Origin: Roseiflexus sp. RS-1
Lineage (GTDB): Bacteria; Chloroflexota; Chloroflexia; Chloroflexales; Roseiflexaceae
Length of the DNA stretch: 64,000 bases
Assembly: GCF_000016665.1 (NCBI RefSeq)
Contig: NC_009523.1
Span: 2,294,001 to 2,358,000, forward strand
Direction: 5' to 3'
Part shown: piece after piece, positions 2,280 to 27,067 of the stretch
Layout: each line of letters starts with the position of its first letter
How positions within the stretch are numbered: the first letter of the stretch is position 1
Notes under the pieces: generated by a model
What the model was told of the DNA's origin: nothing
Seen by the model: only the letters and a program-made list of their open reading frames with translations
Database searches by the model: none
Position numbers and translations under genes: made by a program

Positions 2280-2867
2280 TTAATGCTCCTGCAACGGTTG
2301 ATTGCTCAACTCGCGATACCAGACAAACGCCGTCTGCCCGTTTTCGGTGTAGCGCCAGAAATGGAGGTAGACGCGACCATGAGCATTGACGGGATAGTCC
2401 AGTCGGGCGGCTGCGACGCGGTCATCAAACCAGAGTTTGTGACCCTCCTTGCGTTCACCCCACAGAATCACCGATTCCTCATAGCGCCGCAGTGTGCAGC
2501 CAGGATGAGCCGCCCAGAAGTCCTTTGCGCCAAAATCATCCACCGACACATTAATCTTCTCACCCACGTAATGCCACAACCAGCGTCCAGCGTCACGGCG
2601 CAGCGAGAGATGCCCGCCCTTGCCAAAGATCTCGGCGCGTTGGAGAAACTCTGGCTCACCAGGCGCATCGGCGAACTCAATGTGGCTGACGTGTTCCCAC
2701 AGGCGAAATGGCATCTGGCTCCATTGGTTCTGCCAGGTCTTCAGGAAGTCCGTCAAACGGTCGGCAGCGAATTGACCACCCAGAATTGTAGGTCGGTCAG
2801 CGTCGGTCACCTGTGCCTTCTGCATTTTCTCAATCAGTTGGTCGAAGTTTATGCTGTTGTCGCTCAT
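2280..2867 (-). CDS. csx19: Csx19-like type III-D accessory subunit (TIGR03984 family)
   Basis: A 195-aa soluble protein rich in Trp and aromatic residues, including the stretch GRWLWHYVGEKINV and a C-terminal HFWRYTENGQTAFVWYRE. Size, composition and position between the double Cas7 and the Cas7-insertion gene fit Csx19, a subunit typical of III-D loci that has no known catalytic role. Its ATG overlaps the stop of the upstream gene by 4 nt (ATGA), so translation is probably coupled. No catalytic motif is visible. The family call depends mainly on context and general resemblance. Confidence 0.65.
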   Translation of the reverse strand: MSDNSINFDQLIEKMQKAQVTDADRPTILGGQFAADRLTDFLKTWQNQWSQMPFRLWEHVSHIEFADAPGEPEFLQRAEIFGKGGHLSLRRDAGRWLWHYVGEKINVSVDDFGAKDFWAAHPGCTLRRYEESVILWGERKEGHKLWFDDRVAAARLDYPVNAHGRVYLHFWRYTENGQTAFVWYRELSNQPLQEH

Positions 2868-4648
2868 GAGACCCTCGCAGGATACAGATCAGATAGCCAG
2901 GAACCGTTGACCTGCTCGAAGTAACTGTCGCGTTGCAACGTAAAGCGATGCCGGTGCTCGTCAACGAGATTGTTGAACGCTCTCACCCAACCCTCAGCCA
3001 GGGTTTTCAATTCATTGGTAGCCTGTTCGTAAACTAACGTATGGTAGATGCCGCTGAAACCGTTTTTGGATTGTAACAATCGTCGTCCGGCGACGACAGC
3101 CTGGTTGTGAGTATTGCTATCGGGCAGAGGAAAGTCGTCGTCGTGCAGGATACCGAAGGTTAATCTGGGACTCTCGATAACGCACCGCCCGAAACCTTTC
3201 GCGGCGCCGAATCCCACGGTCGTCAGTCCATCGTGCAGGTCGCGCAGCACCAGCGCCAGCCAGCCCAACTCCCAGGGTTCGGGGTTTTCCAGAAACAGTC
3301 GCACACGGAATTTCGGCTTCCATAGCACCACAGCGTCAAACTTGGCGGTATCGCGGCCACCGCCGGTGAAGCGGTCAATAGCAAGGAAGTCGAGTGCTTT
3401 GAGTTCGACCTTCTCACCGACAAAGGGTGCATCTTCAACCCGCAATCGGCTTCCGTTCCAGGGGCTGCCGAAAAGCTGGCAGGCAAGACACAGTTTGTCG
3501 TCGGCGCCTTCATGCTCGAGTGTCGTGCGCTCAGCGCGGGGAAGTGTCTTGATAAAGCTATTGCAACTTGCCACTGGATCATCGGTTCTGGTTGTCAATG
3601 GATTGCAGGCAGGGCATGTAGTAAGAAACTTCTCCTTCCTGGTCTGGCTATCATGACCGTCATCCCACGCCTTGAGCGTCGCCAGTGTGCGAGCAATGCG
3701 CTCAGCCTGACTGCGCAGCACGCCGCGCAAGCCGGAGCCGGGCAGCACCGGTTTTGCCCCCCTGTCATAGGTTGCCAGCAGCGGCGCATGGTCGAAGCCG
3801 CTGCGTCCCGCCTGCATCAGGTCATGGGTGAGAAAGGGTCCGGTCGCAGCCAGAGTGAACTCAGCCAGCGCCCAGGAGCGTGCAACTGCTGACAGGTCTC
3901 GATGGTTTGTGGTCACACGCTGTCGTGCATCCTCGACCTGTTTACGAAGCCAGTTGCGGTCGCCGTCCGTTGTGTCCCAGGGTGGTCCATTGCGCAGGAA
4001 ATCGATCAGCACGTTGGGCTGATTGAGATCGCGTTCGATCCATTGCACGTCGGTCAAATCAAACGCGCCCAATCCTCTACCGACACGTCCGCCAACCACG
4101 CCACGCCCCTGTTCCCACTCGGCAAGAACAGATGCAAGGAGCGGCAATGTCTTCTCTTCATCAGGCAGTCGAGGGTCAATCTCCAGACGCAGTTTGAAGA
4201 TCGTTCCCGCCGGCAACACCTCATAATCAAACTTAATACGCTCTCGTCGCGCTGCCGCGCCGGTAACGCGGTCTATCCCAACGCCGTCGCGGATCTGCAG
4301 TCCGGGGACATCCGCCAGAACTGCGTCGTACACAAGAACGCGGGCAGCGCTGGCTTCTTCGTTCTCCTCGCTGGGGTTCACATCACCAAACAGTCGGCAG
4401 ACAAGGCACTGACATGCTTGGTTTGTCATTGGGCCTTTCAGCGCCTGGCAAAGCTGCTCGCCCCTAAAACGTGGCGCCAGACGGGTAGCGAGGCTACGCA
4501 GTGCACCGGCAATAGCCGTGCCAGGGATGAGAAGGCGACCACGTGCATCGCGGCGCAGCAGGTCATCAGTGGTTTCGCTGTCCTGACCCGTGCCAATGTG
4601 CAGCGCCGTGCGCAGCCTCAGAGTGGCCGTAACTGCTCGAAATGTCAT
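2864..4648 (-). CDS. Double Cas7 (Csm3-like tandem fusion, 'Cas7-2x')
   Basis: A 594-aa protein with two consecutive Cas7/Csm3-like RAMP domains, predicted to supply two adjacent backbone subunits. Domain 1 has IGTGQDSETTDDLL, then IPGTAIAGALRS, and CLVCRLFGD near residues 81-89. Domain 2 has GRSGFDHAPLL, LPGSGLRGVLRS near 300 and CLACQLFGS near 384. The acidic residues before each glycine loop (D28/D29 and the Asp in GFDHAP) sit where Csm3 carries its target-RNA-cleaving aspartate, so both domains may be active nucleases; that is inference. It lies 2 nt downstream of the Cas7-Cas5 fusion and overlaps csx19 by 4 nt. Confidence 0.82.
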   Translation of the reverse strand: MTFRAVTATLRLRTALHIGTGQDSETTDDLLRRDARGRLLIPGTAIAGALRSLATRLAPRFRGEQLCQALKGPMTNQACQCLVCRLFGDVNPSEENEEASAARVLVYDAVLADVPGLQIRDGVGIDRVTGAAARRERIKFDYEVLPAGTIFKLRLEIDPRLPDEEKTLPLLASVLAEWEQGRGVVGGRVGRGLGAFDLTDVQWIERDLNQPNVLIDFLRNGPPWDTTDGDRNWLRKQVEDARQRVTTNHRDLSAVARSWALAEFTLAATGPFLTHDLMQAGRSGFDHAPLLATYDRGAKPVLPGSGLRGVLRSQAERIARTLATLKAWDDGHDSQTRKEKFLTTCPACNPLTTRTDDPVASCNSFIKTLPRAERTTLEHEGADDKLCLACQLFGSPWNGSRLRVEDAPFVGEKVELKALDFLAIDRFTGGGRDTAKFDAVVLWKPKFRVRLFLENPEPWELGWLALVLRDLHDGLTTVGFGAAKGFGRCVIESPRLTFGILHDDDFPLPDSNTHNQAVVAGRRLLQSKNGFSGIYHTLVYEQATNELKTLAEGWVRAFNNLVDEHRHRFTLQRDSYFEQVNGSWLSDLYPARVS

Positions 4649-4650
4649 GA

Positions 4651-7116
4651 CTACCTCCGTTCCATGGCTTTCTGACGGGCGGGACCGGCGATGCGATCAG
4701 CCAGCAATCGCAGCCCGACACACCACGCTTGTGCTTCCTGCTCTAGCTCGTTCTCCTTGAGCAACGTTGCCAGGGCATCGAGCATGCGCTGAATCATCTC
4801 CAGGCCCTGCTTTCCATCGGTTTCGAAGAAGTTTGGCTTATCGCGGCCCGACAATGGCGCGCTAAGCAATGTATCTTGCCGTCCCATCCGTTGCAGATCG
4901 CTCTTGATGGCTTCCAGCGAGGTCTGCTGCGATGTGAAGAGCAGGCGAGCAACTGCCTCGAAGCGTCCGTCTCTTATCAGTTCTGTCTGGAACTCTTCGT
5001 CAAGTTTCCTGGCCCATTCTAACCAGAATTGCAACACGCGGGCAGAGAAGTGTGCGGTATGCGCGTTACTCAAGGCAAGCGGCGCCAGTTCGGCAGCGGT
5101 GGTTTGCACATCAAGCAGTTGTCGGTCAAGCTGTTGATAGATCGGATGGTTGAATGCCACGCGACCGAACCCTTCATCACGACGCAGACCAATACCCTGC
5201 GCTTCTGCGGCCTCCAGCAGCGACAACAGGTCTCGCAACGCAATGCCGGTGAAGGTCAGGCGCACACTGGAGCCGGCCACAATGGCGATGTCGCGCGCTC
5301 GTGGCAACCCCAGCTTTGCATTGAAGGCATCCACCGCCCGCGTTGTCGAGAAAGCCAAAAGCTCGCCATGCTGGTTGCGATCAATGGCTACATTGGCGCC
5401 TTTCGGCAACTTCAGTTCCTGCTTCAGCCAGTCGGCATCGAACCCACGCCAGAAACGGCCCCACGGATCCGGCACAATGGCATCGCTCAGCAGCAGCAGC
5501 GTGATTCGTTCTGTTGTTGAAACCCGCTTCTGCACACTGCTGAAATGCAGGTGCGGCGTTGACTGTGGTCGAAAGACAGCACTGACCTCACCGTAGCCAC
5601 GTTGACCCGCCTTACCGAGCGTCAGCTCGTTTACATCGCCGTTTGGACGAAGATTGGCCATTGTCTGTAACGTCTTCCAGGTTTGCTCATTGCTGCACGT
5701 GATCTCACCCAGGAAATATTGACCTGGTTCCAGCGCCACATAACCGAACAGGTCGCCAGTGCGCACGCGGCCGCTCTTCGGATCGATGCGGATGTGCATT
5801 TCTACAGTCTGCTTCGGCTTGTGCTTCGACCGTGGTGCGTCCTTCACTAACGAGATAAACCCACTCAACGTCTCCAGCTTCACCGACGCGGCCTGTCTTC
5901 CGCTGACGGCATCAGGCTGGGCACAGATTGGACATTCCTGCGGCGCGTTGTCCTGGAGGAGACTCCATACGCCATGCCCTTCTTTGCTCTGTGCCCGCCC
6001 TTGATCTTGGCTCTGCGTCCCATAACCGCGATACAATTCGCAGGTGAAAAGGTCGCGTGGGGCAACAATGGTTGGATAGCCAGACTTCTCTCGCTGTATT
6101 TCTACAGACAAGAGCATCGAAAAGCGCACAGTATCGTGAAAGAACAGGTTGACAAAGTTCCGATACGCTGTGCTGCTGTGATCTTCGAGTTGGGCGCCCA
6201 GATGCTGGGCAATGCGCCAGGCCAGCGCACCGCGCAGAACAGCGCCAGGGATGGTTTCAAGCGTCTCGAACTGGTTGCCCGCCTCGGCGCGACGGGCGAC
6301 GAGCAGCGGTTCGTCGAGGCGTACAAGCACCTGAAGGCGATAGGTGTGCTGGCCTGGATCTGCCGGAAGCGTCAGTGGCTGAATGTTTGCTCTCTGAGCG
6401 GCGCCTGCAGACGCGACTGGCTCATTCTTCAATCGCTGTTCCAGCCGCTGAAGCAGTCTGTTCTCTTGTGAGAGGTCCGCCAGGTGAATCTCACATTCAC
6501 CATAGCCCCGACGTTTGCCTGCGCCCAGGTTGCGCAGCAGCCGTGCCGCCGCCACCAGCCACTCGGCCTCACGCCAGGCATCCTCACTCTCATCCATACA
6601 TTCGGCGATGAAGCGAAAATGGAGGCTACCGTCCCCTTCTTCACGGGTGAAGAGTTTGTTCTCTTCGGCACGGCGTGTGCGAGGATTAACGCGCACGCGT
6701 GTTGTGATCTGTGCAGCTGTTTCGCCTGCCCGCCACTCACGAGATGATGTCTGAGGTGTTGTCAGTCCCGCTGGTCGAGCCGATGCAATGCGCCAGCGTT
6801 TTCGTCGCCCGGTAGACCCAAAGATAGTGCAGACCGGGCATTCGGAACCATGGTTTGTTGCAAACTGGCCACAGTACACGGGCTTTGATGCGTCGCCGCC
6901 GGAAGCCTGACAGCGCTGTTCGCCAGCGAAGGGATCGAGTGATAACAGGTTCGCCAGACTTTCACGCAGGAGACCAGCCAGCACCGTGCCACGGATCACC
7001 GGCACGTTGTCGGGGTCACGCAATAGTGCCGAGTCCACCTGCAATCCGAGACCATGCCCGGCACTGACGTGGTAGTCGCTCTTGAATGCAATGTCGAATT
7101 CGAGGCGGATGCTCAT
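4651..7116 (-). CDS. Cas7-Cas5(Csx10)-Cas11-like fusion, type III-D
   Basis: An 821-aa fusion. Residues 1 to about 225 form a Csm3-like Cas7 domain: HVSAGHGLGLQVDSALL with D28 at the usual catalytic position, VIRGTVLAGLLRES, and a Cys cluster ending CPVCTIFGS. From about 250, a Csx10/Cas5-like RAMP carries LDEPLLVARRAEAGNQ then IPGAVLRGALAWRI. The last 150 residues, starting near LSNAHTAHFSAR, are helical and glycine-poor, as expected of a fused small subunit (Cas11). This order equals the Cas7-Cas5-Cas11 subunit of III-Dv. No free small-subunit gene exists nearby, which supports the reading. It overlaps cas10 by 4 nt. Confidence 0.78.
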   Translation of the reverse strand: MSIRLEFDIAFKSDYHVSAGHGLGLQVDSALLRDPDNVPVIRGTVLAGLLRESLANLLSLDPFAGEQRCQASGGDASKPVYCGQFATNHGSECPVCTIFGSTGRRKRWRIASARPAGLTTPQTSSREWRAGETAAQITTRVRVNPRTRRAEENKLFTREEGDGSLHFRFIAECMDESEDAWREAEWLVAAARLLRNLGAGKRRGYGECEIHLADLSQENRLLQRLEQRLKNEPVASAGAAQRANIQPLTLPADPGQHTYRLQVLVRLDEPLLVARRAEAGNQFETLETIPGAVLRGALAWRIAQHLGAQLEDHSSTAYRNFVNLFFHDTVRFSMLLSVEIQREKSGYPTIVAPRDLFTCELYRGYGTQSQDQGRAQSKEGHGVWSLLQDNAPQECPICAQPDAVSGRQAASVKLETLSGFISLVKDAPRSKHKPKQTVEMHIRIDPKSGRVRTGDLFGYVALEPGQYFLGEITCSNEQTWKTLQTMANLRPNGDVNELTLGKAGQRGYGEVSAVFRPQSTPHLHFSSVQKRVSTTERITLLLLSDAIVPDPWGRFWRGFDADWLKQELKLPKGANVAIDRNQHGELLAFSTTRAVDAFNAKLGLPRARDIAIVAGSSVRLTFTGIALRDLLSLLEAAEAQGIGLRRDEGFGRVAFNHPIYQQLDRQLLDVQTTAAELAPLALSNAHTAHFSARVLQFWLEWARKLDEEFQTELIRDGRFEAVARLLFTSQQTSLEAIKSDLQRMGRQDTLLSAPLSGRDKPNFFETDGKQGLEMIQRMLDALATLLKENELEQEAQAWCVGLRLLADRIAGPARQKAMERR

Positions 7117-8750
7117 GCTTCTTCCTCCTGCGGCTCGTAATCATCCGGACGATACTCCAGGTCCTGAGCAAAATCCCAGGACTCCAGGAGATCCAGCATG
7201 CCATGCGCAAACGGTGTGGCGTCGCCCCGACGGATTTCTCGCCAGTGATGGTCACTGTTGCTGTCGTTTCTGGACTTGCCCAGCGTTGTCAGGGCTGTCT
7301 CCAGTTTTGCTCTTGATGTTGTGCTGAGCCGCTGCAGCACGTTATCCAGCTGGCGGTTCGTCCAGGTTTGCATTGTCTGATTGCGATCTCGAATGGTTAT
7401 CGACGTCGGCACATCCTCAAAGCAGCGCCGCAGTTCCGCCAGACGCTTGCTCGGAATATCCTTAAGAGTCAGACGTTGATCGAGAAGGGTTTTGATTTCC
7501 AACCCTCGTTCTTTTGCGTTTTGAGAAAGGTCGCCATCACACACCCAGTACGGTCGCAGCGTGAGACGGACGATCCTAGAGTGTTCAGCGTCGTCATCTT
7601 CCTGACCAGCCAGGCGATTCCCCAGGATGACTTCAAAGTTGACAGCGGAAAGATGCTCACCCGTCTCTGCAGCCAGCAGCTTGCTCTGGCGCTTCGCCTC
7701 CTTAAGCAACGCTTCAGCCCGACGATGCGCCAGCGCATATGGGTATGTTCCCTTGCAGATGACGACAGCGGCAGCCACAGTGGGGCGCGGAAGGTCAGTC
7801 AGTCCAATCTCATCCGCCAGTTTCTTCATACGCCGCTCCCACTCCAGACAGAATCGTCGGGTGAAGTCGAGAGCATACGGCGCCGGGATAAGAGCAAACA
7901 AGTCATCACCGCCAAGGATGAGCGGGATCATGGGGATCATGTGCGCCTGTTCTGAAACAACGTTCCGAAAACTGGCTGCTGCCGCTGCCAGGCTGTCCTG
8001 CAGAATGGGCGATAACCCTTCGGAAAGCTTTGTAAGCTGCTCCTGACCACACATGCCGAACGTGCGACCCATGCCATTGCCGTCGGCGACGAGATAGGCG
8101 ACATAATTGCGCTGGCGTAAATCTAACCTGGCAATATCATCGGCATCTTCGGGCCAATCGAGATTTATTGTCGGTTGAGTTCCGAGCGACGTGCAATATG
8201 CTTCATACAACTCATCGAGGATTGCGCGTGGTTTCCGATCACGCTCCGCAGCCTTCGCCCGGCATGCTTCACATATGTAGGAAGACCGGTTTGTAGCGCG
8301 CCTTCCTGTTAGTCGTTCACGCTTCCTGGCAAGCGCCACTCCACACGATGCACAGAACGCCACATACGGCATATGCACTTCGGCGATTGCGCCCTGTCGG
8401 CGGCTTTTTGCCCAGCGCAGCCTTTCCCCTGCCTGCTCGTTGGCTTTGCGAAAGTCGCCGTCTAGCCTAACCGGCTCGGCTACAGTCAGGCTTCCACCCA
8501 ACGCCAGGCGATAGAGCTCAGCCAGATCGGCGCCAAAGGCGCGCGCCTTTGCCAGGTCGTCGAAGATCACGCGAAAACTGCCGCCGTCGTTGACCACAAC
8601 TTGACCACCGTGTTTCTTTGCCAGTGTATCGTCAATACTGCGACAAAAGCGCGTTAACAACTGGCTGGCGCCCACCACTTCGCGCAGACGAGAGGAGCGG
8701 AAGATGAAATCCTGGATTTTGTCGGCTTCAGCAGCCAGCAAATAGGGCAT
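7113..8750 (-). CDS. cas10: Cas10, HD-less, with intact GGDD cyclase motif
   Basis: A 545-aa large subunit. It opens directly with a palm-like segment (YLLAAEADKIQDFIF), has a zinc-ribbon pair (CASCG near residue 131 and CEACR near 160), and carries the second palm with ILGGDDLFALIPA at about residues 280-283, the cyclic-oligoadenylate synthase motif. No N-terminal HD nuclease domain is present, so single-strand DNase activity is not expected. Output would be signalling plus Cas7-mediated RNA cleavage. CARF proteins encoded on both sides fit that. The ATG at 8750 directly begins the conserved palm sequence. Confidence 0.88.
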   Translation of the reverse strand: MPYLLAAEADKIQDFIFRSSRLREVVGASQLLTRFCRSIDDTLAKKHGGQVVVNDGGSFRVIFDDLAKARAFGADLAELYRLALGGSLTVAEPVRLDGDFRKANEQAGERLRWAKSRRQGAIAEVHMPYVAFCASCGVALARKRERLTGRRATNRSSYICEACRAKAAERDRKPRAILDELYEAYCTSLGTQPTINLDWPEDADDIARLDLRQRNYVAYLVADGNGMGRTFGMCGQEQLTKLSEGLSPILQDSLAAAAASFRNVVSEQAHMIPMIPLILGGDDLFALIPAPYALDFTRRFCLEWERRMKKLADEIGLTDLPRPTVAAAVVICKGTYPYALAHRRAEALLKEAKRQSKLLAAETGEHLSAVNFEVILGNRLAGQEDDDAEHSRIVRLTLRPYWVCDGDLSQNAKERGLEIKTLLDQRLTLKDIPSKRLAELRRCFEDVPTSITIRDRNQTMQTWTNRQLDNVLQRLSTTSRAKLETALTTLGKSRNDSNSDHHWREIRRGDATPFAHGMLDLLESWDFAQDLEYRPDDYEPQEEEA

Positions 8751-8771: not shown

Positions 8772-10529
8772 TCACTCGCGCAACCTGGGCGGCAGAAAAT
8801 CGAGCTCACAGATTTCGCACAGACGAGACCAGGATGGCGATTCCACCCGCTTGCCCTCAGCCTGAGCGCAGATGCCTGGATGGAAATGTTCCAGCCAGTT
8901 GGTCTCGAACTCTTTGACGGCAGCCTGCACCAATTCCAACGCCGCCTCTGCTACATTTCTGGGGATGTACAGATGGGTGTGGATGGCTTCACCTCGGAGT
9001 TTCACAAAGAGCGGTGTCGTGTTGCCGCTGGCATCGGTATAGACCGCTCCTGCCAGATCTAGTGATAAGTTGTCGTAATAGGGCTGCAATGAGGGTGCTG
9101 TACTGGAGCGACGGACGTTACCTCCCCTGACATTCATCTCTTCCTGGTTCTGCAATGCCCTTCTGAACTTCCCTTCGCTCGACTCGTCCATCAGAGAGGC
9201 GAAGGCATCCCTTTCCGTATTACCAAACGCAGTAGCCACCGACTGCCACGTCGATCCGCCTTTGGGCTTTGCCTCAAGGGCATTATGTAGCCAGCATAGC
9301 GCAAGGCGTGCTTTGAGCAGAAACTCGTGAAGTCCGGCTGCCCGCAAATAAGCCGAACGATAGTCCTCGTTCTTGTCGATGAGGCGTTCGATTTTCGCCA
9401 GTTCATCACGCACATATGCCAGCAGCTTCGTGGGATGTGTGAATAGCGAGTCGGACGGATGCGAGGTTCCCTGCTTGAGCGCCATATGCGCCTTCAGCAA
9501 GCTATCAGCGGCAGATCGAGCATTAGAGATATGTGCCGCGCTTGGCCAGACATCGCCCAATTCGACGACACTCCAGGGGATAGCATCGTCAGGCAGTGGC
9601 GGGGTAAGTCCATCGGCAATCGCTCTGGCGTGGGTATAATCGCCATTCTCCCATGCCTCGTACATCTCGAAGAGGGTTGCCAGACGTTGTACTTTATTAA
9701 TATCCCGCTGATCGTACAGCGTTTCTCCATCGTCGGCATTGTCGATAGTTTGCGACATTGCGCCGAGAATGCCAGAACCTGACGTTCCACTATTGCCAGC
9801 CTGACCCAACAACGCACGTGCACTGCGAAAGTTGTAACTCTCATACAATCGCCGTACCTGTTCCCAGTCACGCAGGCGGAACGCTTCATATGGGTTGGCA
9901 ATCTCGCCGATCCGACAGGTATAGCCGTAAGGTTTGCCCCAATCTTTGTCGTACTCATCAAAGTCCACATACGTAATGGGCAACCCCGAATGGGCTGCAT
10001 ACAGGAACGCACCCACCACCATGCTCTTCTTGGCGCCGGTAATGTCCACCACATTGACGTGACCGTCCGGCGGCTGAGCCTCAGGCTTCCGCATTGTATC
10101 AAGTAGCGCACGGAACACTTGGGTGGGAGAGTCATTCTTGAGCTCGATAAGCTCAACGTCCTGCACTTCAGGGCGCACATCCTGAGGCAGATCGGGAACA
10201 TGAGGGAGTTTCTCGATCAAATCTTGCAACTCACGACCATGATCGTAGCCAGGAGTTCCACTGTAGAACTGGTTCAGGATCAACACGACACGCCTGGGGC
10301 GTAGCACACAGATAACCTGAAGTAGCGGTTCAAACGACTCGCCGACAGTGAGCGCAAGCGTATGCACCGGCTTGCCTGCTCCTCGCACACGTGTCGAGCC
10401 ATTTGGTTGTGAGATAGCTTGGAGTTCTCTCCCCAACAACTCGTTTATATAGACTTCAAATCCTGGTTTCTCCTTCCAGTACTCTTGTGTACGTTCTTTC
10501 AAGCCTTGTTTCGTCAGTCGTGTGGTCAT
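8772..10529 (-). CDS. CARF-domain protein of the TIGR02710 (Cas02710/Csm6-like) family
   Basis: A 585-aa protein. Residues about 50-260 look like a CARF Rossmann fold: an early VHTLALTVGESFEPLLQVI strand-helix and the ligand-loop motif DITGAKKSM near residue 160. The C-terminal half is helical. I find no canonical RNxxxH HEPN motif; RAAGLH is the only R-x4-H in the helical part and is unconvincing. ATG at 10529 is chosen because AGGGGAG precedes it by 7 nt, and the 40 codons upstream read as non-coding. It is the first gene of the III-D operon. Role: sensing of cyclic oligoadenylate made by the neighbouring Cas10, output unknown. Confidence 0.75.
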   Translation of the reverse strand: MTTRLTKQGLKERTQEYWKEKPGFEVYINELLGRELQAISQPNGSTRVRGAGKPVHTLALTVGESFEPLLQVICVLRPRRVVLILNQFYSGTPGYDHGRELQDLIEKLPHVPDLPQDVRPEVQDVELIELKNDSPTQVFRALLDTMRKPEAQPPDGHVNVVDITGAKKSMVVGAFLYAAHSGLPITYVDFDEYDKDWGKPYGYTCRIGEIANPYEAFRLRDWEQVRRLYESYNFRSARALLGQAGNSGTSGSGILGAMSQTIDNADDGETLYDQRDINKVQRLATLFEMYEAWENGDYTHARAIADGLTPPLPDDAIPWSVVELGDVWPSAAHISNARSAADSLLKAHMALKQGTSHPSDSLFTHPTKLLAYVRDELAKIERLIDKNEDYRSAYLRAAGLHEFLLKARLALCWLHNALEAKPKGGSTWQSVATAFGNTERDAFASLMDESSEGKFRRALQNQEEMNVRGGNVRRSSTAPSLQPYYDNLSLDLAGAVYTDASGNTTPLFVKLRGEAIHTHLYIPRNVAEAALELVQAAVKEFETNWLEHFHPGICAQAEGKRVESPSWSRLCEICELDFLPPRLRE

Positions 10530-10702
10530 CTCCCCACTCCCCTCTTTCTCAGCAAGGTTTCGCAATACACCTTTGTTACGCACCAATACAACTGGTGTAC
10601 CACGAGTTTTCCCCATCCTACCCCATCCCCTCACCATACACCTCACCACCGCTGCTGAAGAACAATCACCTCTTCCTGTGATTGTGCGTCTCGTGCGCTC
10701 TG

Positions 10703-11596
10703 CTATACTCGCTCAAGGAAACCGGCAAAACGCTCGCGCAGGAAACGGTAGTCGAGCGGTGCGTTGTCGGGGAGGTTCCAGGCAACGCGGCATTCGGACA
10801 GGATTGCAGTTTTGTGGGTGTTGACGGTGTTGAGCGTAATGTTGAGATGAGTCGCCGCTTCATCGGGGCGCATGCCCTTTGCAAGGGCGCGCAGCACGTC
10901 GCGCTGGCGCGGGCTGAGCCGCTCCCACACCTGGCGACACTGCGGTTCGTCGATGGCGGCAAAACGCTGCAACTGCTCCTGCACCGCCTGCATCGATGTC
11001 AGAGCCAGTGCGCGCAGCGCCGGAAAGCAGGCGCCCCACGGCACGATCGGCGTCTGGATCAACTGCACGCCGTCGGACGGGTCGACGTGCATCAGCGCGC
11101 CGTCCTTGACACGCTGCAACGTCTCTTCCGGCGTGTGCATGTGCCAGATACGGTCCTGATGGTCGCAGAGCAACGCCGCAGCCGACATTGCCAGCAGCGC
11201 CAGCATGCGCCGACCGCCGCTCAGACAGAGGTGGAGCCGTCGTCCCTCATTCTTCAGGTCGGCGATCAGGGTGCGGATGCTCTGCCATGCGACTTCGGCA
11301 TCGGCGGCGGTGCGAATGTCGGTCAACTCAACGCCGTTGACGCCGACCGGCGCCCGACGCAGACGGCAGCGCCGGTTGGTGTGGGCGTAATAGTCGTTGG
11401 GGAACTCCTGTTGCAGGCGGCTCAGCGCCTGGCGCGTGCGTGGGTTGGTGAGCGACAGGTGAATGAGATACACGTCGGTAATCGGTTCGCCCCGCGCCAG
11501 CAGCGCATCGAGGGCAAAGGTCACGATCTGCGGCTGACCGCCCAGGGTGGCGACCAGCGTGGTGGTATGTGCGAGTTCCGAGTTGGTATCTGTCAT
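10703..11596 (-). CDS. CARF (NE0113/Csm6-type) fused to LuxR-type HTH: putative cOA-responsive regulator
   Basis: About 297 aa. The N-terminal 170 residues resemble the NE0113 CRISPR family (TIGR02584): ATLGGQPQIVTFALDALLA at the start, then LHLCLSGGRRMLALLAMS near residue 127 and a following DRIWHMH. The C-terminus is a classic LuxR/GerE DNA-binding domain: LSPRQRDVLRALAKGM followed by LNTVNTHKTAIL, residues about 226-275. The second Met (11596) is preferred; an extension to 11611 is possible. It is divergent from the Csx3-fusion gene with almost no spacer, which suggests it controls that promoter and its own. It may also cleave or simply bind cyclic oligoadenylate. Confidence 0.72.
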   Translation of the reverse strand: MTDTNSELAHTTTLVATLGGQPQIVTFALDALLARGEPITDVYLIHLSLTNPRTRQALSRLQQEFPNDYYAHTNRRCRLRRAPVGVNGVELTDIRTAADAEVAWQSIRTLIADLKNEGRRLHLCLSGGRRMLALLAMSAAALLCDHQDRIWHMHTPEETLQRVKDGALMHVDPSDGVQLIQTPIVPWGACFPALRALALTSMQAVQEQLQRFAAIDEPQCRQVWERLSPRQRDVLRALAKGMRPDEAATHLNITLNTVNTHKTAILSECRVAWNLPDNAPLDYRFLRERFAGFLERV

Positions 11597-11620
11597 GACA
11601 CGATGTAACACAATGTCACA
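11591..11620. promoter_or_regulatory. Operator-like palindrome and repeats between CARF-HTH and Csx3-fusion genes
   Basis: The 10-bp perfect palindrome TGTCATGACA (11591-11600) covers the start codon of the CARF-HTH gene. Beyond it, on the minus strand, come the related 7-mers GTTACAT and GTGACAT. This packs repeated half-sites into the only region between two divergent genes, one of which encodes a DNA-binding protein. A role as the autoregulatory operator is inference. Confidence 0.4.
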
Positions 11621-11634
11621 AGGAGGAAATGCCG

Positions 11635-12828
11635 ATGAATCCCTTTCCTGCCGTCGTGATCGGCGGTCCGCCGCACAGCGGCAAATCGGTGTTGACCTAT
11701 CTGCTGACGCGGCAGTTGCGCGCGTTGCGGGTTGAGCACTACGTGCTGCGCGCCTGCCCCGATGGCGAAGGCGACTGGAGCCAGGAAGCGCCGCCTGAAC
11801 GGGTGCGCCTGCTGCGCCAGAAGGGACAGTTCAGCCAGGATTTTGTCGACCGCGTCTGCCGCGACCTGGCGCAGCGCCACCTGCCGCTCATCGTCGATGT
11901 CGGCGGCAAACCGACGCCTGACCAGGAACGGATCCTCGATCAGTGCACCCACGCGGTGCTCATTTCCGCGAACGAGGCGGGGTTGAAAGAGTGGCGCGAC
12001 CGCTTCGAGCGCCATGGCTTGCCGATCATCGCCGAACTGCACTCCGTGCTCATCGGCGAGGATTGCATCGAAGCCGAAATACCGGTGCTGCGCGGGCAGA
12101 TTGCCAACCTGGAACGCTTCACCGGAGTCGGCGGTTTGATGGTCGAGGCGCTGGCGCAACAGTTACAGTGTCTCATGACCTATACCGACGCCGACCTGAA
12201 AACGTATCATTGTTCCCACGCCCCCACCGAACTGGTCGTCGATGTGGATCACCTTGCCTGGTGGGTCGAATTGCCGGAGCAGCAACACTGGCTGCCGGCG
12301 TATCTCGCGCGCGCGCTCACGTATGCGCCTAAAGGAACGCCGCTCTCGATCTACGGTCGCGGTCCCAACTGGCTCTACGCAGCGCTGGCGCTGCACGCCG
12401 CACCGCACCAGGTCTATCTCTTCGACCCGCGCATGGGATGGGTTGCGCCGGTGACGCTCCACTGCACGCCAGCGGCGACGGCGGATGCGGTTGCGTGGAA
12501 GATCGAACCATTTCCGACGCACACCTGGATCGAACTGACGCCGACTCAGCCCTACCTCGACTACGACGACGTCAATGGCACAGCGCTGCCCGCGCTCGAC
12601 CCGTCGCATGGCGTTGTGCTCAGTGGAAAACTTCCGTTCTGGTTGCTGCTCGGTGCGGCGCTTGCCTATTGCCATCACCCGTGGCTTGGCATCGTTCAGG
12701 CGCAGCAGTATGACGAGTGCATTGTGGTGATGAGCAGGGATGCAGCGTACCAGCCGGGCGCCTGCTTCCGCTTTAGAACCGATCCTCATCACGGAACAAC
12801 CATCGGGAGCATGACACAGGAACGCTAG
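11635..12828 (+). CDS. P-loop NTPase fused to two Csx3-like modules (putative ring nuclease, Crn3-type)
   Basis: A 397-aa fusion. Residues 9-18 hold a Walker A loop (GGPPHSGKS) at the start of a small kinase-like P-loop domain of about 170 residues. Two similar modules follow: one with VVDVDHLAWWVEL, GRGPNWLYAALA and FDPRMG (about 200-270), and one with GVVLSGKLPFWLLLGAALA and CIVVMS (about 315-365). Both match the SGxxPxWL pattern I know from Csx3, a cyclic tetra-adenylate-degrading ring nuclease; ATPase-Csx3 fusions are known. The ATG at 11635 is chosen because AGGAGG (11621-11626) lies 8 nt upstream, against only 2 nt for the ATG at 11629. Confidence 0.68.
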   Translation: MNPFPAVVIGGPPHSGKSVLTYLLTRQLRALRVEHYVLRACPDGEGDWSQEAPPERVRLLRQKGQFSQDFVDRVCRDLAQRHLPLIVDVGGKPTPDQERILDQCTHAVLISANEAGLKEWRDRFERHGLPIIAELHSVLIGEDCIEAEIPVLRGQIANLERFTGVGGLMVEALAQQLQCLMTYTDADLKTYHCSHAPTELVVDVDHLAWWVELPEQQHWLPAYLARALTYAPKGTPLSIYGRGPNWLYAALALHAAPHQVYLFDPRMGWVAPVTLHCTPAATADAVAWKIEPFPTHTWIELTPTQPYLDYDDVNGTALPALDPSHGVVLSGKLPFWLLLGAALAYCHHPWLGIVQAQQYDECIVVMSRDAAYQPGACFRFRTDPHHGTTIGSMTQER

Positions 12829-13084: not shown

Positions 13085-13163
13085 AGAGGGAAACAGGTTC
13101 GCAACGCTGTGGGTGTGGAAAGGAACGCACCTGTCAACCCAGGAATCAGCAGAGGAGTCGGGC

Positions 13164-14657
13164 ATGATCACCTATACCGGACATCCATTCGTCGATACGG
13201 GGTTTGCCGTGATCACCGCTTTTGTGCGTAAACGGCGCTTTGCCGATCTCGCCGACGACGATTTTCAGCAGATCGCCGACTATATCGAAGCGAACTATGT
13301 GCGACAGCCCCTGCGCAGCTTTTTGACCGTGGCGTTTACCAGTAATGCATGGTTCGCGCAATCGGCGTTCAATCCCGACCGGCCCGACCTGTCGCCGGAA
13401 AAACAGACTGAAGCGCGTGAGAAGCGCCAGTACTGGGCGGATCGGCATTTGCGCCAGTGGCAGCAGAGCGCTGCTGCGCTCGAAACCTGCCTTTTCACCG
13501 GATTACCGGCGGCAGGTCTTGAATTGTCGCAGAAGTTGCAACCGGGACGGGTAGGGCGGGCGCAAATGCCATTGCTTCAGGGTGATGATGCGATCAACTT
13601 CTTTATCAATGGCGACCCTGGTTTGCCGATGGCGGCGGAAGCGATTCTGGCACTCCAGGCGATGCCTCTGGGATGCGCTAAAGTCGGTGGGGGCTTGCTC
13701 GCCGTGCACTGCGATGATGAGGCGTTGACGATCGCCTTCGCAACACGCTTCTTGCAGCGCAATCTCAACGATGTGGCGAAAGCGCAGGCTGCCGGCGAAA
13801 AGAAACTGCCCGGTTCGCCGCGCAGTCTGAAGACGCTGCTGGTTGAGACATTGACCGAGATTCTGATTCGGCAGATTCAGGAAGAGGAGCGACGCGCACG
13901 GCGTCCGGCGATCACGGCCTACTATTTCAACAATGGTCAGTCGCCGTTTCTTGAAATCTACCATCTGCCGCTCCAGATTACCGGTTTTCTCCTGGCAGTG
14001 CATACCCCTGCCTACCGCGCGATCTGGAATGAACTGGTGCAACGTGGCTGGCAGCGCGCAGGAATATCAGGCAAGCAGGGGAAGGCAGTCGATCCGGTTG
14101 AACCACATTTCAACTATCTGTACGAAGACCTTTTTACCCTGCCGGCGCAGGCGGCGCGGTTCGTGCGCACCTATTTTCTGCGCATTCCCGATCTTCGTCG
14201 CTCAGCGGACGATCCGCGGCGCGAGTATTCGCCGCGCCGCGAAGCCGATCTGGTTTCATGGCCGCTCGTTGAACTCTTTGCACAGGAGGTATTGCTCATG
14301 ACCGATGACCGGGTAACGAAATTGAAGGAGTTGGGCGATAAACTGGCTGATTACACCCGTTATCAGGGAGGTAAGCGTTTTTTTCGCCAGTTCTTTGTCG
14401 AGCAGCGAAGTGATAACTTTCTCAGCCTGCTGAACAAAGCCAATATCGACTACACGCGCTACAAGCGTGGTCAGGAGACATTGTTCGATCTCGATAGTTT
14501 TCTGACCATTTTTATGGAGGGCGATGAGGTCTTGCGCAAGGACTGGCGCCTGATGCGAGATCTGGTGCTCATTCGTATGGTCGAACAGTTGCGCGACTGG
14601 ATCGCCGGCAACCCTGATGCCATTCCAGCCGAAGAAGAAGTTGCAGCAAACGAATAG
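13164..14657 (+). CDS. cas8: Cas8 (Cst1/Cas8a1-like), type I-B Cascade large subunit
   Basis: A 497-aa protein beginning MITYTGHPFVDTGFAVITA, a start I associate with the Cst1 family of Cas8 proteins, expected to recognise PAM and organise the I-B Cascade. The ATG at 13164 is preferred because AGAGGAG (13151-13157) precedes it and the conserved motif begins there; an open extension to 13113 is probably not translated. It is the first gene of the cas8-cas7-cas5-cas3-cas6-cas1-cas2-cas4 run and is 18 nt from cas7. No catalytic motif is expected. Confidence 0.8.
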   Translation: MITYTGHPFVDTGFAVITAFVRKRRFADLADDDFQQIADYIEANYVRQPLRSFLTVAFTSNAWFAQSAFNPDRPDLSPEKQTEAREKRQYWADRHLRQWQQSAAALETCLFTGLPAAGLELSQKLQPGRVGRAQMPLLQGDDAINFFINGDPGLPMAAEAILALQAMPLGCAKVGGGLLAVHCDDEALTIAFATRFLQRNLNDVAKAQAAGEKKLPGSPRSLKTLLVETLTEILIRQIQEEERRARRPAITAYYFNNGQSPFLEIYHLPLQITGFLLAVHTPAYRAIWNELVQRGWQRAGISGKQGKAVDPVEPHFNYLYEDLFTLPAQAARFVRTYFLRIPDLRRSADDPRREYSPRREADLVSWPLVELFAQEVLLMTDDRVTKLKELGDKLADYTRYQGGKRFFRQFFVEQRSDNFLSLLNKANIDYTRYKRGQETLFDLDSFLTIFMEGDEVLRKDWRLMRDLVLIRMVEQLRDWIAGNPDAIPAEEEVAANE

Positions 14658-14675
14658 AGAGGAGCGACATCAACC

Positions 14676-15767
14676 ATGGCATTCGTAACCGGTTTACTGC
14701 TGATCGATGCGCCAGCGTCGGCGCTCAACAACCTCGGCTCGATCCCCGGCGAGCGGGAAGAGAACACGGTCGGGGTCAAGATGATTACCACCAAGACCGG
14801 CAATTTTCCCTACGTTTCGGCGCAGGCATTTCGCTACTGGTTGCGCACGACGCTCGAACAACGGGTGCCGGAATGGCGGGCGTCGCCGATCTTCCGTGAA
14901 GAGAAAATCGCCTATACCGACGCCAACCCGATCCGCTACTGGGACGACGATCTCTTCGGTTATATGCGCGCTCCTGGTAAGGCGGACACCGCCAGAAAGA
15001 GCCGTGAGCAGATCAGTTTGCTCGAAGATGCAACACCGGTGAAAGAGACGGTGACACGCGCCTCGCCGTTCCGCGTCAGCACCCTGGTCTCGATTGCGCC
15101 GGTGAATCCGACCAGTGATTTCGGCGTGATGTCGCGCCACGAGGGGAATCCGGTGCCGCATGAGCATCAGTTCTACCGCGCGACCCTGAAGGGCCTCTTC
15201 TCGCTCGATCTGTGGGCGTGCGGCACGTTCTCGTACCGTAATCGCACCGGGTTCCGCAATCTCGACGACGAGCGGGTGCGTCTGGTCGCCGATGTTTCGG
15301 GGGTTGAGCATCTCAAGGATGAGCAATCATACCGGCTGCCGAAAGATCAGCGGATCGCCCGGGTGAAGGCGCTGTTCAGCGGACTGGCGCAGCTGGAAGG
15401 CGGCGCCAAACAGACGCTCCACTATACCGATGTCAGCCCGGCGCTGGTGATCTTTGCCGTCACCGACGGCGGCAATCATATCTTCCATCACACCGTGGGG
15501 GCGAATCGCAGCGGGTTGCCGGAGATCAAAATCGATGCGCTGCGGGAGGCGTTGCGTGTGTTTGCCGATAGCATCCGCTCGCCGGTGTATGTCGGCTGGG
15601 TCAGGGGTTATCTGGACGAGGCGCGGGCCGGGTTTGAGCAGTTCGTTGCCGAACATAATGCGGTTGCCGCTAAGGAAGGCTTGCCAGTGATCACAGTGAG
15701 CCATCCGCGTGAGGCCTTTATGGCGTTTGTGGCAGCCTGCGACGAGCATCCTGAGTGGCTGGATTAG
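14676..15767 (+). CDS. cas7: Cas7 (Cst2/DevR family), type I-B Cascade backbone
   Basis: A 363-aa protein beginning MAFVTGLLLIDAPASALNN with the Cst2/DevR features TGNFPYVSAQAFRYWLRTTL and PFRVSTLVSI. It should polymerise along the crRNA in the type I-B Cascade. It follows cas8 after 18 nt with a GAGAGGAG ribosome site. The downstream spacing to cas5 is unusually wide (428 nt) because repetitive elements sit between the two genes, so cas5 onward may need readthrough or a second promoter. Confidence 0.88.
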   Translation: MAFVTGLLLIDAPASALNNLGSIPGEREENTVGVKMITTKTGNFPYVSAQAFRYWLRTTLEQRVPEWRASPIFREEKIAYTDANPIRYWDDDLFGYMRAPGKADTARKSREQISLLEDATPVKETVTRASPFRVSTLVSIAPVNPTSDFGVMSRHEGNPVPHEHQFYRATLKGLFSLDLWACGTFSYRNRTGFRNLDDERVRLVADVSGVEHLKDEQSYRLPKDQRIARVKALFSGLAQLEGGAKQTLHYTDVSPALVIFAVTDGGNHIFHHTVGANRSGLPEIKIDALREALRVFADSIRSPVYVGWVRGYLDEARAGFEQFVAEHNAVAAKEGLPVITVSHPREAFMAFVAACDEHPEWLD

Positions 15768-19296: not shown

Positions 19297-20256
19297 ATGA
19301 GTCTGCTGACCCATCATTTACAGTTCACGATGGTTGCTGCAACGCCGCTGGAACTGGGCGACAACGCTGGTTCGGCGGTGCGCGGCGCGCTGGTGAATGC
19401 GCTGCTGGATCGCTTCTGTGCCAACAAAGACGCACCCACCTGCGTCGATTGTCCACTCTTCAACGTCTGCCCGGTGGCAGCGCTGGTAGCGCCTATGCGT
19501 GAAACCGGCGAAACCGGCGGGGATCAGCGCCCGCGTCCCTACGTCACCCGCCCGCCGCAGCCGCGCCGCTACGCCCCCGACGAGACACTGACATTCGGGT
19601 TGGGACTGTTCGGGCATGCCGCCGAACTCTTCCCCTACGTCGTCATAGCAGCCCAGGGGATCGAACGCCAGGGGCTGGGGCGACGGTTGCAGGAACAGAA
19701 CGGGCGGCGCGGCAGGGTGCGTCTCCTGGCGATCCATGCTGTCAACCCGCTGACCGGCGACAGACAACCGCTGTTCCAGGCTGATCAGCGACAGGTTCAG
19801 GTTCCCGGCATTCCCATCGGACCGGCGGAGGTTGCCGCGTTTGCCGCCACCCTGCCCGAAAACCGTCTCACCCTGCGCTTCCTGACACCGATGCGCCTGA
19901 TCGATAAGGGGGGCCTGGTGAAACGCCCGGCGCTGCGTCCGCTCATCCAGCGGCTCGGCATCCGCCTCACCGACCTGGCGGCAGCCTATGGCGACGGTCC
20001 GCTTCCCGCCGCCGACGCGCGCGCGCTCCTGCCGCTCGCCGAAAGCGCCACCCTGGAATACGACAATACCCGCTGGATCGATATTACCAGCTACTCGCGA
20101 CGATCCGGCGAACGCACCCCAATCGGCGGCATGGTTGGCGAAGCCGTGTTCACCGGCAACCTGGGACCCCTGCGCGAAATCCTGGTCTGGGGCAGCCTGG
20201 TGCACGTCGGCAAAAACGCCGTCAAAGGCGATGGCTGGTATGTGGTTGAAGGTTGA
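19297..20256 (+). CDS. cas6: Cas6 crRNA-processing endoribonuclease
   Basis: A 319-aa protein beginning MSLLTHHLQFTMVAATPLEL, with a four-Cys segment (CVDCPLFNVC) and a C-terminal Cas6-like RAMP region that includes GMVGEAVFTGNLGPLREIL and WGSLVHVGKNAVKGDGWYV. It would cut each repeat just 3' of the hairpin, leaving an 8-nt ACTGAAAC handle. The start at 19297 fits the spacing after cas3. The last codons (GTT GAA GGT TGA) are the first units of the GGTTGAA heptamer tract, so the present stop codon is created by repeat DNA. It is the only cas6 in the window and probably serves the type III system too. Confidence 0.82.
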   Translation: MSLLTHHLQFTMVAATPLELGDNAGSAVRGALVNALLDRFCANKDAPTCVDCPLFNVCPVAALVAPMRETGETGGDQRPRPYVTRPPQPRRYAPDETLTFGLGLFGHAAELFPYVVIAAQGIERQGLGRRLQEQNGRRGRVRLLAIHAVNPLTGDRQPLFQADQRQVQVPGIPIGPAEVAAFAATLPENRLTLRFLTPMRLIDKGGLVKRPALRPLIQRLGIRLTDLAAAYGDGPLPAADARALLPLAESATLEYDNTRWIDITSYSRRSGERTPIGGMVGEAVFTGNLGPLREILVWGSLVHVGKNAVKGDGWYVVEG

Positions 20257-20518
20257 AGGTTGAAGGTTGAAGGTTGAAGGTTGAAGGTTGAACGTGGGAA
20301 GGTTGAAGGTTGAAGGTTGAACGTGGGAAGGTTGAACGTTTTCGATTCCCGGTTCTTGGTTCCTGGTTCTCGGTTCTTGGTTCCTGGTTCCTGGTTCTTG
20401 GTTCTCGGTTCCTGGTTCCTGGTTCCTGGTTCCTGGTTCCTGGTTCTCGGTTCTCGGTTCCTGGTTCTCGGTTCTCGGTTCTTGGTTCTTGGTTCTCGGT
20501 TCTCGGTTCTTGGTTCTT
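20244..20518. repeat. Heptanucleotide tandem repeats between cas6 and cas1
   Basis: Seven GGTTGAA units start at 20244, followed by CGTGGGAA interruptions with more GGTTGAA units. From 20351 to 20518 there are 24 uninterrupted GGTTCNN units (CTT, CCT or CTC endings). The tract fills nearly all of the gap between cas6 and cas1 and stays open in the cas1 frame. Strict 7-bp periodicity with drifting last bases resembles the short tandem heptamers known from cyanobacteria. Its function is unknown. Confidence 0.9.
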
Positions 20519-22715: not shown

Positions 22716-25700
22716 ATTTCGGCAATTTCGACTCGTTGAAGAGTACTGAAACACGACATATTACGGGAGACGTGCATTCCCGCGGAATAATTTCGGCAAT
22801 TTCGACTCGTTGAAGAGTACTGAAACAGACGTTGACGCCATCAAACCATCGGATTTCAACGTATTTCGGCAATTTCGACTCGTTGAAGAGTACTGAAACT
22901 CGGAAAAATCCCGACGTTGTGCAGCACAAACTGCAATTTCGGCAATTTCGACTCGTTGAAGAGTACTGAAACCCGACCGGAGCCAGTCCGGTTCGGGGAG
23001 ATGTGTGGCAAATTTCGGCAATTTCGACTCGTTGAAGAGTACTGAAACTTCGCGCGGGAAACGCGGAAGTCGTTCTCCAGTTCGATTTCGGCAATTTCGA
23101 CTCGTTGAAGAGTACTGAAACCACGTTGAAGCAGTAGGCGTCGCCGGACGGCGTTGCGATTTCGGCAATTTCGACTCGTTGAAGAGTACTGAAACAGCGC
23201 GGCGTGGATCAACAGGCGGTTCCGGTCAACGATTTCGGCAATTTCGACTCGTTGAAGAGTACTGAAACCAGACGACACGGCCACCACACCGCGCTTGGAC
23301 AAAATTTCGGCAATTTCGACTCGTTGAAGAGTACTGAAACACAATGTGTTACCCTCACCTTTGTGGGGTACAACATATTTCGGCAATTTCGACTCGTTGA
23401 AGAGTACTGAAACATCACACGCAGCAGATCGAGCCACTGGCCGCCGCCACGATTTCGGCAATTTCGACTCGTTGAAGAGTACTGAAACAAAGTTCGTATC
23501 TTGGCAGTTTGCGTCGCATTGTAATTTCGGCAATTTCGACTCGTTGAAGAGTACTGAAACACCGGCAAGCGGCTGGAGTGGCGGATGAACTTGTCAACAT
23601 TTCGGCAATTTCGACTCGTTGAAGAGTACTGAAACATACTCGAAGATGCGTTCGTCTTCGAGTTCGAGGTAATTTCGGCAATTTCGACTCGTTGAAGAGT
23701 ACTGAAACCTCTTACCCGGGTGGTCAAGCCGCGCCGGTTTCCGCATTTCGGCAATTTCGACTCGTTGAAGAGTACTGAAACTCGCTGCGCCGCCTCATCG
23801 AGGTCGGCGTACTCGAAATTTCGGCAATTTCGACTCGTTGAAGAGTACTGAAACGATCCAGGCGGGCGTCGAGGCGCAACTGCGCATCAATTTCGGCAAT
23901 TTCGACTCGTTGAAGAGTACTGAAACCGCAGAATTGTTCTACCGCCGGTTTCTGCCGGACGATTTCGGCAATTTCGACTCGTTGAAGAGTACTGAAACTC
24001 TGTGCGATCAGGCGCTCGTAGGGCAGACCGAACGATTTCGGCAATTTCGACTCGTTGAAGAGTACTGAAACTTCGACCGGCTGATGCTGAAACGTCAGCG
24101 TTGTCGGATTTCGGCAATTTCGACTCGTTGAAGAGTACTGAAACGCGCGTGTTGTCGGTGGGGCATCGCGTCTCGCTGGTATTTCGGCAATTTCGACTCG
24201 TTGAAGAGTACTGAAACGCGCGTTGGTGGACGGCAGCCAGGACGCGCCGGCGATTTCGGCAATTTCGACTCGTTGAAGAGTACTGAAACCTGTGCGCGGC
24301 GGGATGAGACCCGCTTGTTCTAGTATTTCGGCAATTTCGACTCGTTGAAGAGTACTGAAACGAATGCCCAACGCCCGCGCTTTGCTGACGAGTGCGATTT
24401 CGGCAATTTCGACTCGTTGAAGAGTACTGAAACATGGACGGATCGGCGCGGTACTCGTGGACGAGCTGCAATTTCGGCAATTTCGACTCGTTGAAGAGTA
24501 CTGAAACGTATTTCGGCTTTACTGGTCTCTTACCGGCGGCGTCCATTTCGGCAATTTCGACTCGTTGAAGAGTACTGAAACGTCGTGCGCACGTTTGTGT
24601 GTCAGGGAGACTCGTATATTTCGGCAATTTCGACTCGTTGAAGAGTACTGAAACTCTCGATAAGTTTGTGGTTGCTCACCACATTCATTATTTCGGCAAT
24701 TTCGACTCGTTGAAGAGTACTGAAACCTCAGTACGTTCAATCGCCGCATTGCGATAGAGATAGATTTCGGCAATTTCGACTCGTTGAAGAGTACTGAAAC
24801 GTGTGTAGTAGCGCTTGCGCGCGGTTATCTCAATGATTTCGGCAATTTCGACTCGTTGAAGAGTACTGAAACCGCTTCCGCCTTCTTGATTACCGCGCCC
24901 GCAATCGATTTCGGCAATTTCGACTCGTTGAAGAGTACTGAAACTCGCGGCAGAGGCAGCATCTCGCCGAAGGCGGCGAAGATTTCGGCAATTTCGACTC
25001 GTTGAAGAGTACTGAAACGCAAACTCGCGCAGCGCCCAGGCGAGGATGACGACGATTTCGGCAATTTCGACTCGTTGAAGAGTACTGAAACAGGAGCAGG
25101 CGGCGTCTCCCTCCTCTTCGAGGCGGAATTTCGGCAATTTCGACTCGTTGAAGAGTACTGAAACATCGGATATGGGAAGGCGTTAGGAACTGGGACGGTA
25201 AATTTCGGCAATTTCGACTCGTTGAAGAGTACTGAAACGTCGGTGCGCTCCGATGCGTACCCGACGACGATTATCATTTCGGCAATTTCGACTCGTTGAA
25301 GAGTACTGAAACCGTAGCGGAGAATGCGATACTGAATATCGCTGTCTGATTTCGGCAATTTCGACTCGTTGAAGAGTACTGAAACTCCTCATACTGACTC
25401 AACCACTCGTCAAGTTCCAGCAATTTCGGCAATTTCGACTCGTTGAAGAGTACTGAAACGCACGCGGACGAAGGCGTGCGCAGCACATCGAATAATTTCG
25501 GCAATTTCGACTCGTTGAAGAGTACTGAAACTCACGCCGTCGGCGACGTGGATGCCGGGGAATGGAGATTTCGGCAATTTCGACTCGTTGAAGAGTACTG
25601 AAACTACGTCGGGATTGTCAAGCGACGCGCCGCGTCAACGAATTTCGGCAATTTCGACTCGTTGAAGAGTACTGAAACGTCGAAGGTGACGACCTCGTAG

Positions 25701-27026: not shown

Positions 27027-27067
27027 CTCCCGGTCGACTTTGTCGCTTGGACGGCGAATGGGACGTT

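Follow-up and report, generated by a model that had tools for sequence, protein, structure and literature searches.

A divergent CARF-LuxR and P-loop-Csx3 gene pair at type III CRISPR loci of Chloroflexota: a candidate cyclic oligoadenylate-responsive transcription switch

The type III-D locus within the 64,000-nucleotide stretch of the Roseiflexus sp. RS-1 genome analyzed here (hereafter, the window) begins with two divergent genes. One of these encodes a CARF domain joined to a LuxR-type helix-turn-helix (HTH) domain (CARF-LuxR) and the other encodes a P-loop NTPase domain followed by two Csx3 modules (P-loop-Csx3). The pair appears, with somewhat better than even probability, to be a cyclic oligoadenylate (cOA)-responsive, CARF-based transcription switch of the type III locus that is coupled to a cOA-binding but non-cleaving NTPase. 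The domains, the residues, the gene arrangement and its conservation, and the position in the operon are all directly observed. The features of the window are as follows (window positions):

143-2278, minus strand: TIGR03986 Cas7 (NCBIfam/PADLOC)
2280-2867, minus strand: csx19 (NCBIfam/PADLOC)
2864-4648, minus strand: csx7-type Cas7 (NCBIfam/PADLOC)
4651-7116, minus strand: csx10 fusion (NCBIfam/PADLOC)
7113-8750, minus strand: Cas10 with the GGDD cyclase motif (contains LILGGDD)
8772-10649, minus strand: CARF-HEPN effector of the Csx1/Csm6 type (PADLOC PDLC01809, 1.1e-221)
10703-11596, minus strand: CARF-LuxR gene (stop at 10703, first in-frame ATG at 11596)
11597-11634: region between the start codons, 38 bp, candidate shared regulatory region
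11620-11626, plus strand: Shine-Dalgarno sequence AAGGAGG serving the P-loop-Csx3 gene
11635-12828, plus strand: P-loop-Csx3 gene (start at ATG 11635)
11635-12183, plus strand: P-loop NTPase domain with a SIMIBI/MinD-ParA-like fold (Walker A GGPPHSGKS; VDVGG)
12235-12465 (limits approximate), plus strand: Csx3 module 1, cA4-binding face retained, H57/H60 missing
12490-12780, plus strand: Csx3 module 2, G45, R/K46 and P48 retained; H57, H60, D69, R71 and H80 missing
13113-15767, plus strand: start of a type I-B operon (cas8b, from 13113, and cas7b), downstream of P-loop-Csx3
about 22936-31131: CRISPR array with the 37-bp repeat ATTTCGGCAATTTCGACTCGTTGAAGAGTACTGAAAC

The same-strand type III-D operon starts with the CARF-LuxR gene, which is separated by 53 bp from the CARF-HEPN gene downstream. 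The two hallmarks of a cOA-signaling type III locus, a Cas10 with the GGDD motif and a CARF effector, are both present; the adjoining GGDD-containing Cas10 had already been noticed in the preliminary description of this DNA, which was made from the letters alone. An association of the pair with the type I-B system was considered and rejected: cas8b follows P-loop-Csx3 in only a minority of the homologous loci, and the pair is therefore assigned to the type III system. A second TIGR03986-like Cas7 (38% identical) is encoded just upstream of the first gene of the window, outside its limits (L088:8012-9934), and the same genome encodes a second CARF protein of the Csx14/NE0113 type, 335 aa long and with no recognized HTH (G000:C1:1759980-1760435; L200). 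The later part of the CRISPR array has a variant repeat (CAGCAATTTCGGCTCG...GAGCACTG), and the array region is interrupted by a perfect 15-bp tandem repeat (CGACGGTTCTTCACA, 7.8 copies) at 27110-27226. At 20244-20518, where opposite open reading frames overlap, 7-bp tandem repeats form two blocks (GGTTGAA and GGTTCTT).

For the P-loop-Csx3 gene, ATG 11635 is preferred over ATG 11629 because it is better placed, 8 nt after the Shine-Dalgarno sequence; for CARF-LuxR, GTG at 11611 is an alternative start. Neither a sigma-70-like promoter nor an inverted repeat was detected at 11450-11800 of the window. A search for a conserved operator among 31 intergenic stretches, with k-mer and gapped-palindrome tests, returned only words from the coding starts. 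These negative results count against the proposed switch. In Chloroflexus-type loci, a candidate TGnTATAAT-like extended -10 element is seen upstream of CARF-LuxR, by eye only.

The CARF-LuxR protein consists of a CARF domain of the NE0113/Csx14 type (approximately residues 13-213), a long linker helix and a GerE/LuxR HTH domain (approximately 220-275). Both assignments of the preliminary description, an N-terminal NE0113/Csm6-type CARF and a LuxR DNA-binding domain, are borne out by Pfam: Cas_NE0113 (PF09623) matches residues 22-213 (E 6.1e-51; 173.6 bits against a curated cut-off of 23) and GerE (PF00196) matches residues 227-268 (E 7.5e-9; 35.5 bits against a cut-off of 23.5). There are also weak matches to the NCBIfam family 'CRISPR-associated ring nuclease Csm6'. 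The AF2 model (pLDDT 92) shows the CARF fold, the long helix and the C-terminal HTH. Its best structural match is Cad1-CARF (VIA-align; Z 18.5, rmsd 2.6 over 164), and the ring nuclease Sso2081 (Z 17.0, rmsd 2.4 over 153) and Csa3 (Z 14) are among the other matches. The sequence matches of the HTH domain include the DNA-binding domains of NarL and VraR, and the region of the recognition helix is conserved (T258 in 48, V259 in 43 and H262 in 44 of 48 homologs). When the ligand-binding and catalytic residues described for Sso2081 (PMC10018336) are mapped on the CARF domains, D75 is retained in 42/48, and G104, R105 and K106 in 48, 42 and 47 of 48, respectively, with Arg counted as Lys; in the ligand motif GGRR, the two glycines are invariant (48/48) and the last R/K is found in 47/48. 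The T10-S11 dipeptide of Sso2081 corresponds to G-Q in CARF-LuxR, and Gln occupies the position of the catalytic Ser11 of Crn1 in 43/48 proteins; the Ser11Ala substitution impairs Sso2081 (PMC10018336). That this CARF domain binds cOA without cleaving it would be the natural reading of these residues, as distinct from an established fact. The novelty that the preliminary description attached to this regulator is reduced, given that NE0113-type CARF proteins were predicted to be transcription regulators in 2014 (PMC4012209).

In P-loop-Csx3, the P-loop and the tandem Csx3-like modules are present as previously described, with the Walker A motif and two Cas_csx3 stretches identified by Pfam (whole-protein E 6.2e-18; PF09620, 64.9 bits against a cut-off of 21). 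The full-length protein is matched by the PADLOC model C3a67, 'AAA-Csx3' (732.9 bits; residues 3-384 aligned to positions 1-381 of the 382-position profile). The Walker A residues are retained in more than 90% of the 47 homologs. In the predicted structure (pLDDT 88), the fold matches listed for the P-loop domain include MinD (Z 13.9), FlhG (13.4), ParF (13.0) and dethiobiotin synthetase; AAA+ folds are not among the matches listed, although this absence is no proof. The earlier label 'ATPase' accordingly holds in the wide sense only, for a SIMIBI P-loop NTPase of the MinD/ParA-like kind. The C-terminal Csx3 module superposes on AfCsx3 with an rmsd of 1.4 across 92 residues (Z 14.5). Residues of both modules were mapped on the AfCsx3 numbering in the 47 homologs, with the reference residues taken from the AfCsx3 study (PMC7371418). 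Module 1 retains G45 in 39, R46 in 44, P48 in 44, D69 in 39 and R71 in 38 of the 47, and the HxxH motif (the H57/H60 pair) is absent from all of them. In module 2, G45 and P48 are invariant (47/47), and H57 is found in none, H60 in five and D69 in one of the homologs, with HxxH present in only four. Thus, neither module has the complete catalytic and metal-binding set of Crn3 (H57, H60, D69 and H80): the His residues are missing from both, and the Asp from module 2 as well. In AfCsx3, H60A and D69A each abolish the ring-cleaving activity (PMC7371418), and since both residues are needed there, P-loop-Csx3 is probably a cOA binder rather than a ring nuclease. Built-in degradation of the second messenger, as suggested in the preliminary description, is therefore rejected as the likely reading; the catalytic residues are missing in both Csx3 modules across the homologs and the Crn1 Ser is replaced in most of the CARF domains. 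Judging by their sequences, the two proteins resemble cOA binders rather than ring nucleases. No relative of P-loop-Csx3 was found in viral contigs.

The pairing of the two genes is not due to chance. When the genomes collected in GTDB were scanned with a CARF-LuxR alignment, 55 loci were recovered, nearly all titled Chloroflexota, along with one short contig titled Gammaproteobacteria and one titled 'Bacterium HR24'. P-loop-Csx3 is adjacent and divergent in 50 of these loci; of the remaining five, L094 begins at the edge of a contig, and distant homologs (25-31% identity) account for three. An independent search for P-loop-Csx3 in a draw of 400 Chloroflexota genomes produced 53 matches, of which 49 have the divergent CARF partner. 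Of the four unpaired matches, three are located where a contig begins. The other one (G331; L207:4375-5322) is a distant P-loop protein with a single, weak Csx3 stretch; its gene lies beside that of Csx15 in a III-B operon that has no CARF-LuxR. The co-occurrence on which the preliminary description depended is thus conserved in related genomes, in addition to the CARF match itself. Pairwise distances of the two proteins are correlated (r 0.78, compared to a maximum of 0.24 in 2000 permutations), for which shared ancestry could suffice. Cas10 is encoded downstream, on the same strand as CARF-LuxR, in 32 of the 33 loci for which 2.5 kb or more of sequence is available beyond the CARF gene, and the operons headed by CARF-LuxR belong to subtypes III-A, III-B and III-D; the genes on the P-loop-Csx3 side vary among the loci. 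Stand-alone forms of the regulator exist as well. In some Chloroflexota (L202 and L205), CARF-LuxR alone precedes csm1, and a similar arrangement is read, from ORF sizes only, in L208. A plasmid of Rhodothermus marinus (L175:9974-10879) encodes a 301-aa CARF-HTH protein, 32% identical, directly before csm1 of a III-A system and without P-loop-Csx3; the partner is therefore not required in every case. The Rhodothermus protein is annotated only as a ring nuclease. In four Thermoflexus-type loci (L113, L115, L116 and L126), a Csx15-like protein of a ring nuclease family is encoded right after CARF-LuxR and could supply ring cleavage there.

A parallel arrangement is found on cyanobacterial plasmids, where Csx3 fusions contain a P-loop domain approximately 30-36% identical to that of the Chloroflexota protein. 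In all nine plasmid loci examined (L176-L184), the divergent upstream gene is annotated as TIGR03985, with a WYL domain identified by Pfam in the two proteins tested, and three of these loci have a stand-alone csx3 between this gene and the fusion. The fused Csx3 of Nostoc edaphicum has H57, H60, D69 and R71 intact, and those of three Synechocystis, Allocoleopsis and Nostoc ATCC 53789 lack H60. The apparent loss of catalytic residues is thus general in the tandem form of Chloroflexota and only partial in the wider P-loop-Csx3 class. On the Allocoleopsis plasmid (L177:3812-6558), a stand-alone Crn3 in which every catalytic residue is present adjoins a Csx3-P-loop fusion that lacks them, and this gene pair is close to Tn7-like transposition genes. 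In Pseudanabaena galeata, two Csx3 modules precede the P-loop domain. Deletion of the related Synechocystis gene slr7080 reportedly left interference unchanged (PMC9676260), suggesting that the P-loop-Csx3 partner may be dispensable or have a fine-tuning role. The presence of unrelated regulators in the same place suggests that the regulator controls the promoter of P-loop-Csx3, rather than that one protein contact is conserved.

Within the proposed switch, we infer the ligand, the DNA target, the direction of control and the role of the NTPase. Upon encountering target RNA, Cas10 would make cOA, as its GGDD motif implies. CARF-LuxR, as a dimer, would then bind cOA, probably cA4, through its CARF domain and without cleavage, and binding would alter the interaction of the C-terminal LuxR HTH with DNA in or close to the start region that the two genes share, thereby placing the type III operon and the divergent P-loop-Csx3 gene under joint control. 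The P-loop-Csx3 protein, itself a presumed target of the regulator, could be a second cOA binder that combines a MinD/ParA-fold NTPase with two Csx3 modules, one ligand-binding face being retained, and might hold or gate the messenger, either setting a threshold or serving as an NTP-dependent sensor. The effector kinds and their activating cOAs have been tabulated (PMC9704534); CARF-HEPN proteins of the Csx1 type and CARF-PDDEXK proteins are usually activated by cA4. This ligand is favored because the nearby effectors, CARF-HEPN in the window and CARF-PDDEXK in other homologous loci, are of these kinds. The recurrence of the couple across the whole phylum suggests that it is probably a switch for the CRISPR immune response. 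More tentatively, and as a possibility that we consider doubtful at present, P-loop-Csx3 proteins might, as a class, be cOA sensors that carry a MinD-type NTPase, for the most part do not cleave the messenger and are encoded divergently to the transcription regulator of their type III locus, CARF-LuxR in Chloroflexota and the WYL protein in cyanobacteria. The two would make up a two-sensor gate, in which the NTPase tunes or stores the messenger and, where it is CARF-based, the transcription factor reads it.

Other explanations were weighed as well. The P-loop-Csx3 protein might act directly on CARF-LuxR as an NTP- and cOA-dependent anti-activator or co-regulator, similarly to the action of the MinD-like FleN/FlhG on FleQ. 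The FlhG-like fold and the correlated distances of the two proteins are compatible with such a role, as is the fact that, where the context is visible, the tandem P-loop-Csx3 of Chloroflexota occurs only with CARF-LuxR. However, the MinD-like fold is common and uninformative with respect to function, and the unrelated WYL regulator next to the same class in cyanobacteria speaks against a single conserved protein-protein contact, so that direct action appears rather unlikely. Still less probable is that P-loop-Csx3 works as an active Crn3-type ring nuclease and thereby resets the signal, with cleavage possibly carried out by other residues. The Csx3 fold and motifs are there, D69 and R71 of module 1 persist in most homologs, and a few copies of module 2 have a His near H60; yet H60 and D69 are each indispensable in AfCsx3, HxxH is absent from module 1, HxxH and D69 are nearly absent from module 2, and the four Thermoflexus-type loci already have a Csx15-like protein of a ring nuclease family beside the pair.

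The least probable explanation, which we consider highly improbable, is that CARF-LuxR chiefly sequesters or cleaves cOA and that its HTH is structural, as in Csx1, instead of reading DNA. Relatives are called 'ring nuclease' by NCBI, in line with the weak NCBIfam matches, and the CARF domain is structurally closest to Crn1 and Cad1. Against a structural role stand the above-threshold GerE match, the similarity to the DNA-binding domains of NarL and VraR, and the conservation of T258, V259 and H262 in the recognition-helix region; the prevalence of Gln at the Ser11 position argues against ring cleavage. A DNA-binding, cOA-responsive CARF-LuxR remains the preferred reading.

Most of the described outputs of type III cOA signaling are nucleases, proteases, membrane proteins and ring nucleases, and few, namely Csa3 and Calp, are transcriptional. 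If the proposed switch operates, CARF-LuxR, as a widely conserved regulator that heads operons of subtypes III-A, III-B and III-D, would represent a general route from cOA to transcription in Chloroflexota. The CalpL/CalpT/CalpS system resembles it in turning a cOA signal into a transcription response (PMC11229360) but does so through a SAVED protease and the release of a sigma factor, and has no parts homologous to the pair. With Crn3/Csx3 of A. fulgidus (AF1864), the window protein shares the Csx3 fold of both modules and the cA4-binding face of module 1, and differs in the tandem modules, the P-loop fusion and the loss of catalytic residues. Also close are the Csx3'/AAA-Csx3 fusions (cyanobacterial Slr7080; PADLOC C3a67 and PDLC01059), which have a homologous P-loop, one or more Csx3 modules and a divergent regulator gene; in the cyanobacterial proteins, Csx3 comes first and the P-loop last, next to a WYL regulator, whereas in Chloroflexota the P-loop comes first and two Csx3 modules last, next to CARF-LuxR. 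Such 'AAA-Csx3' fusions have been described as being of unknown function (PMC12409355, PMC7371418); the loss of catalytic residues from the Chloroflexota proteins suggests that such fusions, encoded beside a regulator, may bind the messenger without degrading it.

Both proteins are already cataloged in PADLOC-DB. CARF-LuxR is a full-length match of CARF3--CARF (PDLC01855; 495 bits, residues 11-297), alongside Cas_NE0113 (PF09623), under a PADLOC name that omits the LuxR HTH. The preliminary claim that a LuxR-CARF fusion in such a divergent pair is unrecognized consequently stands for the papers searched but not for the databases: the literature search found no CARF-LuxR link in this sense, a prior mention in the 2020 CARF classification or the 2019 accessory-gene survey being possible. 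The strict pairing and the catalytically stripped Csx3 are more noteworthy than the domain fusion itself. The cA4-binding Csa3 of Saccharolobus solfataricus is a close counterpart of CARF-LuxR, with an N-terminal CARF, a C-terminal DNA-binding HTH, a CRISPR-associated location and a similar structure. CARF-LuxR, a predicted regulator, most likely works like Csa3 but lies outside the Csa3 family: it scores 17.6 bits with TIGR01884, below the cut-off of 60.2, and lacks the winged HTH of that family. The HTH of Csa3 is winged and MarR-like, and the protein is associated with type I-A systems; CARF-LuxR, by contrast, combines a LuxR/GerE HTH with an NE0113/Csx14-type CARF, is encoded at the start of type III operons and is accompanied by P-loop-Csx3 as a near-constant divergent neighbor.
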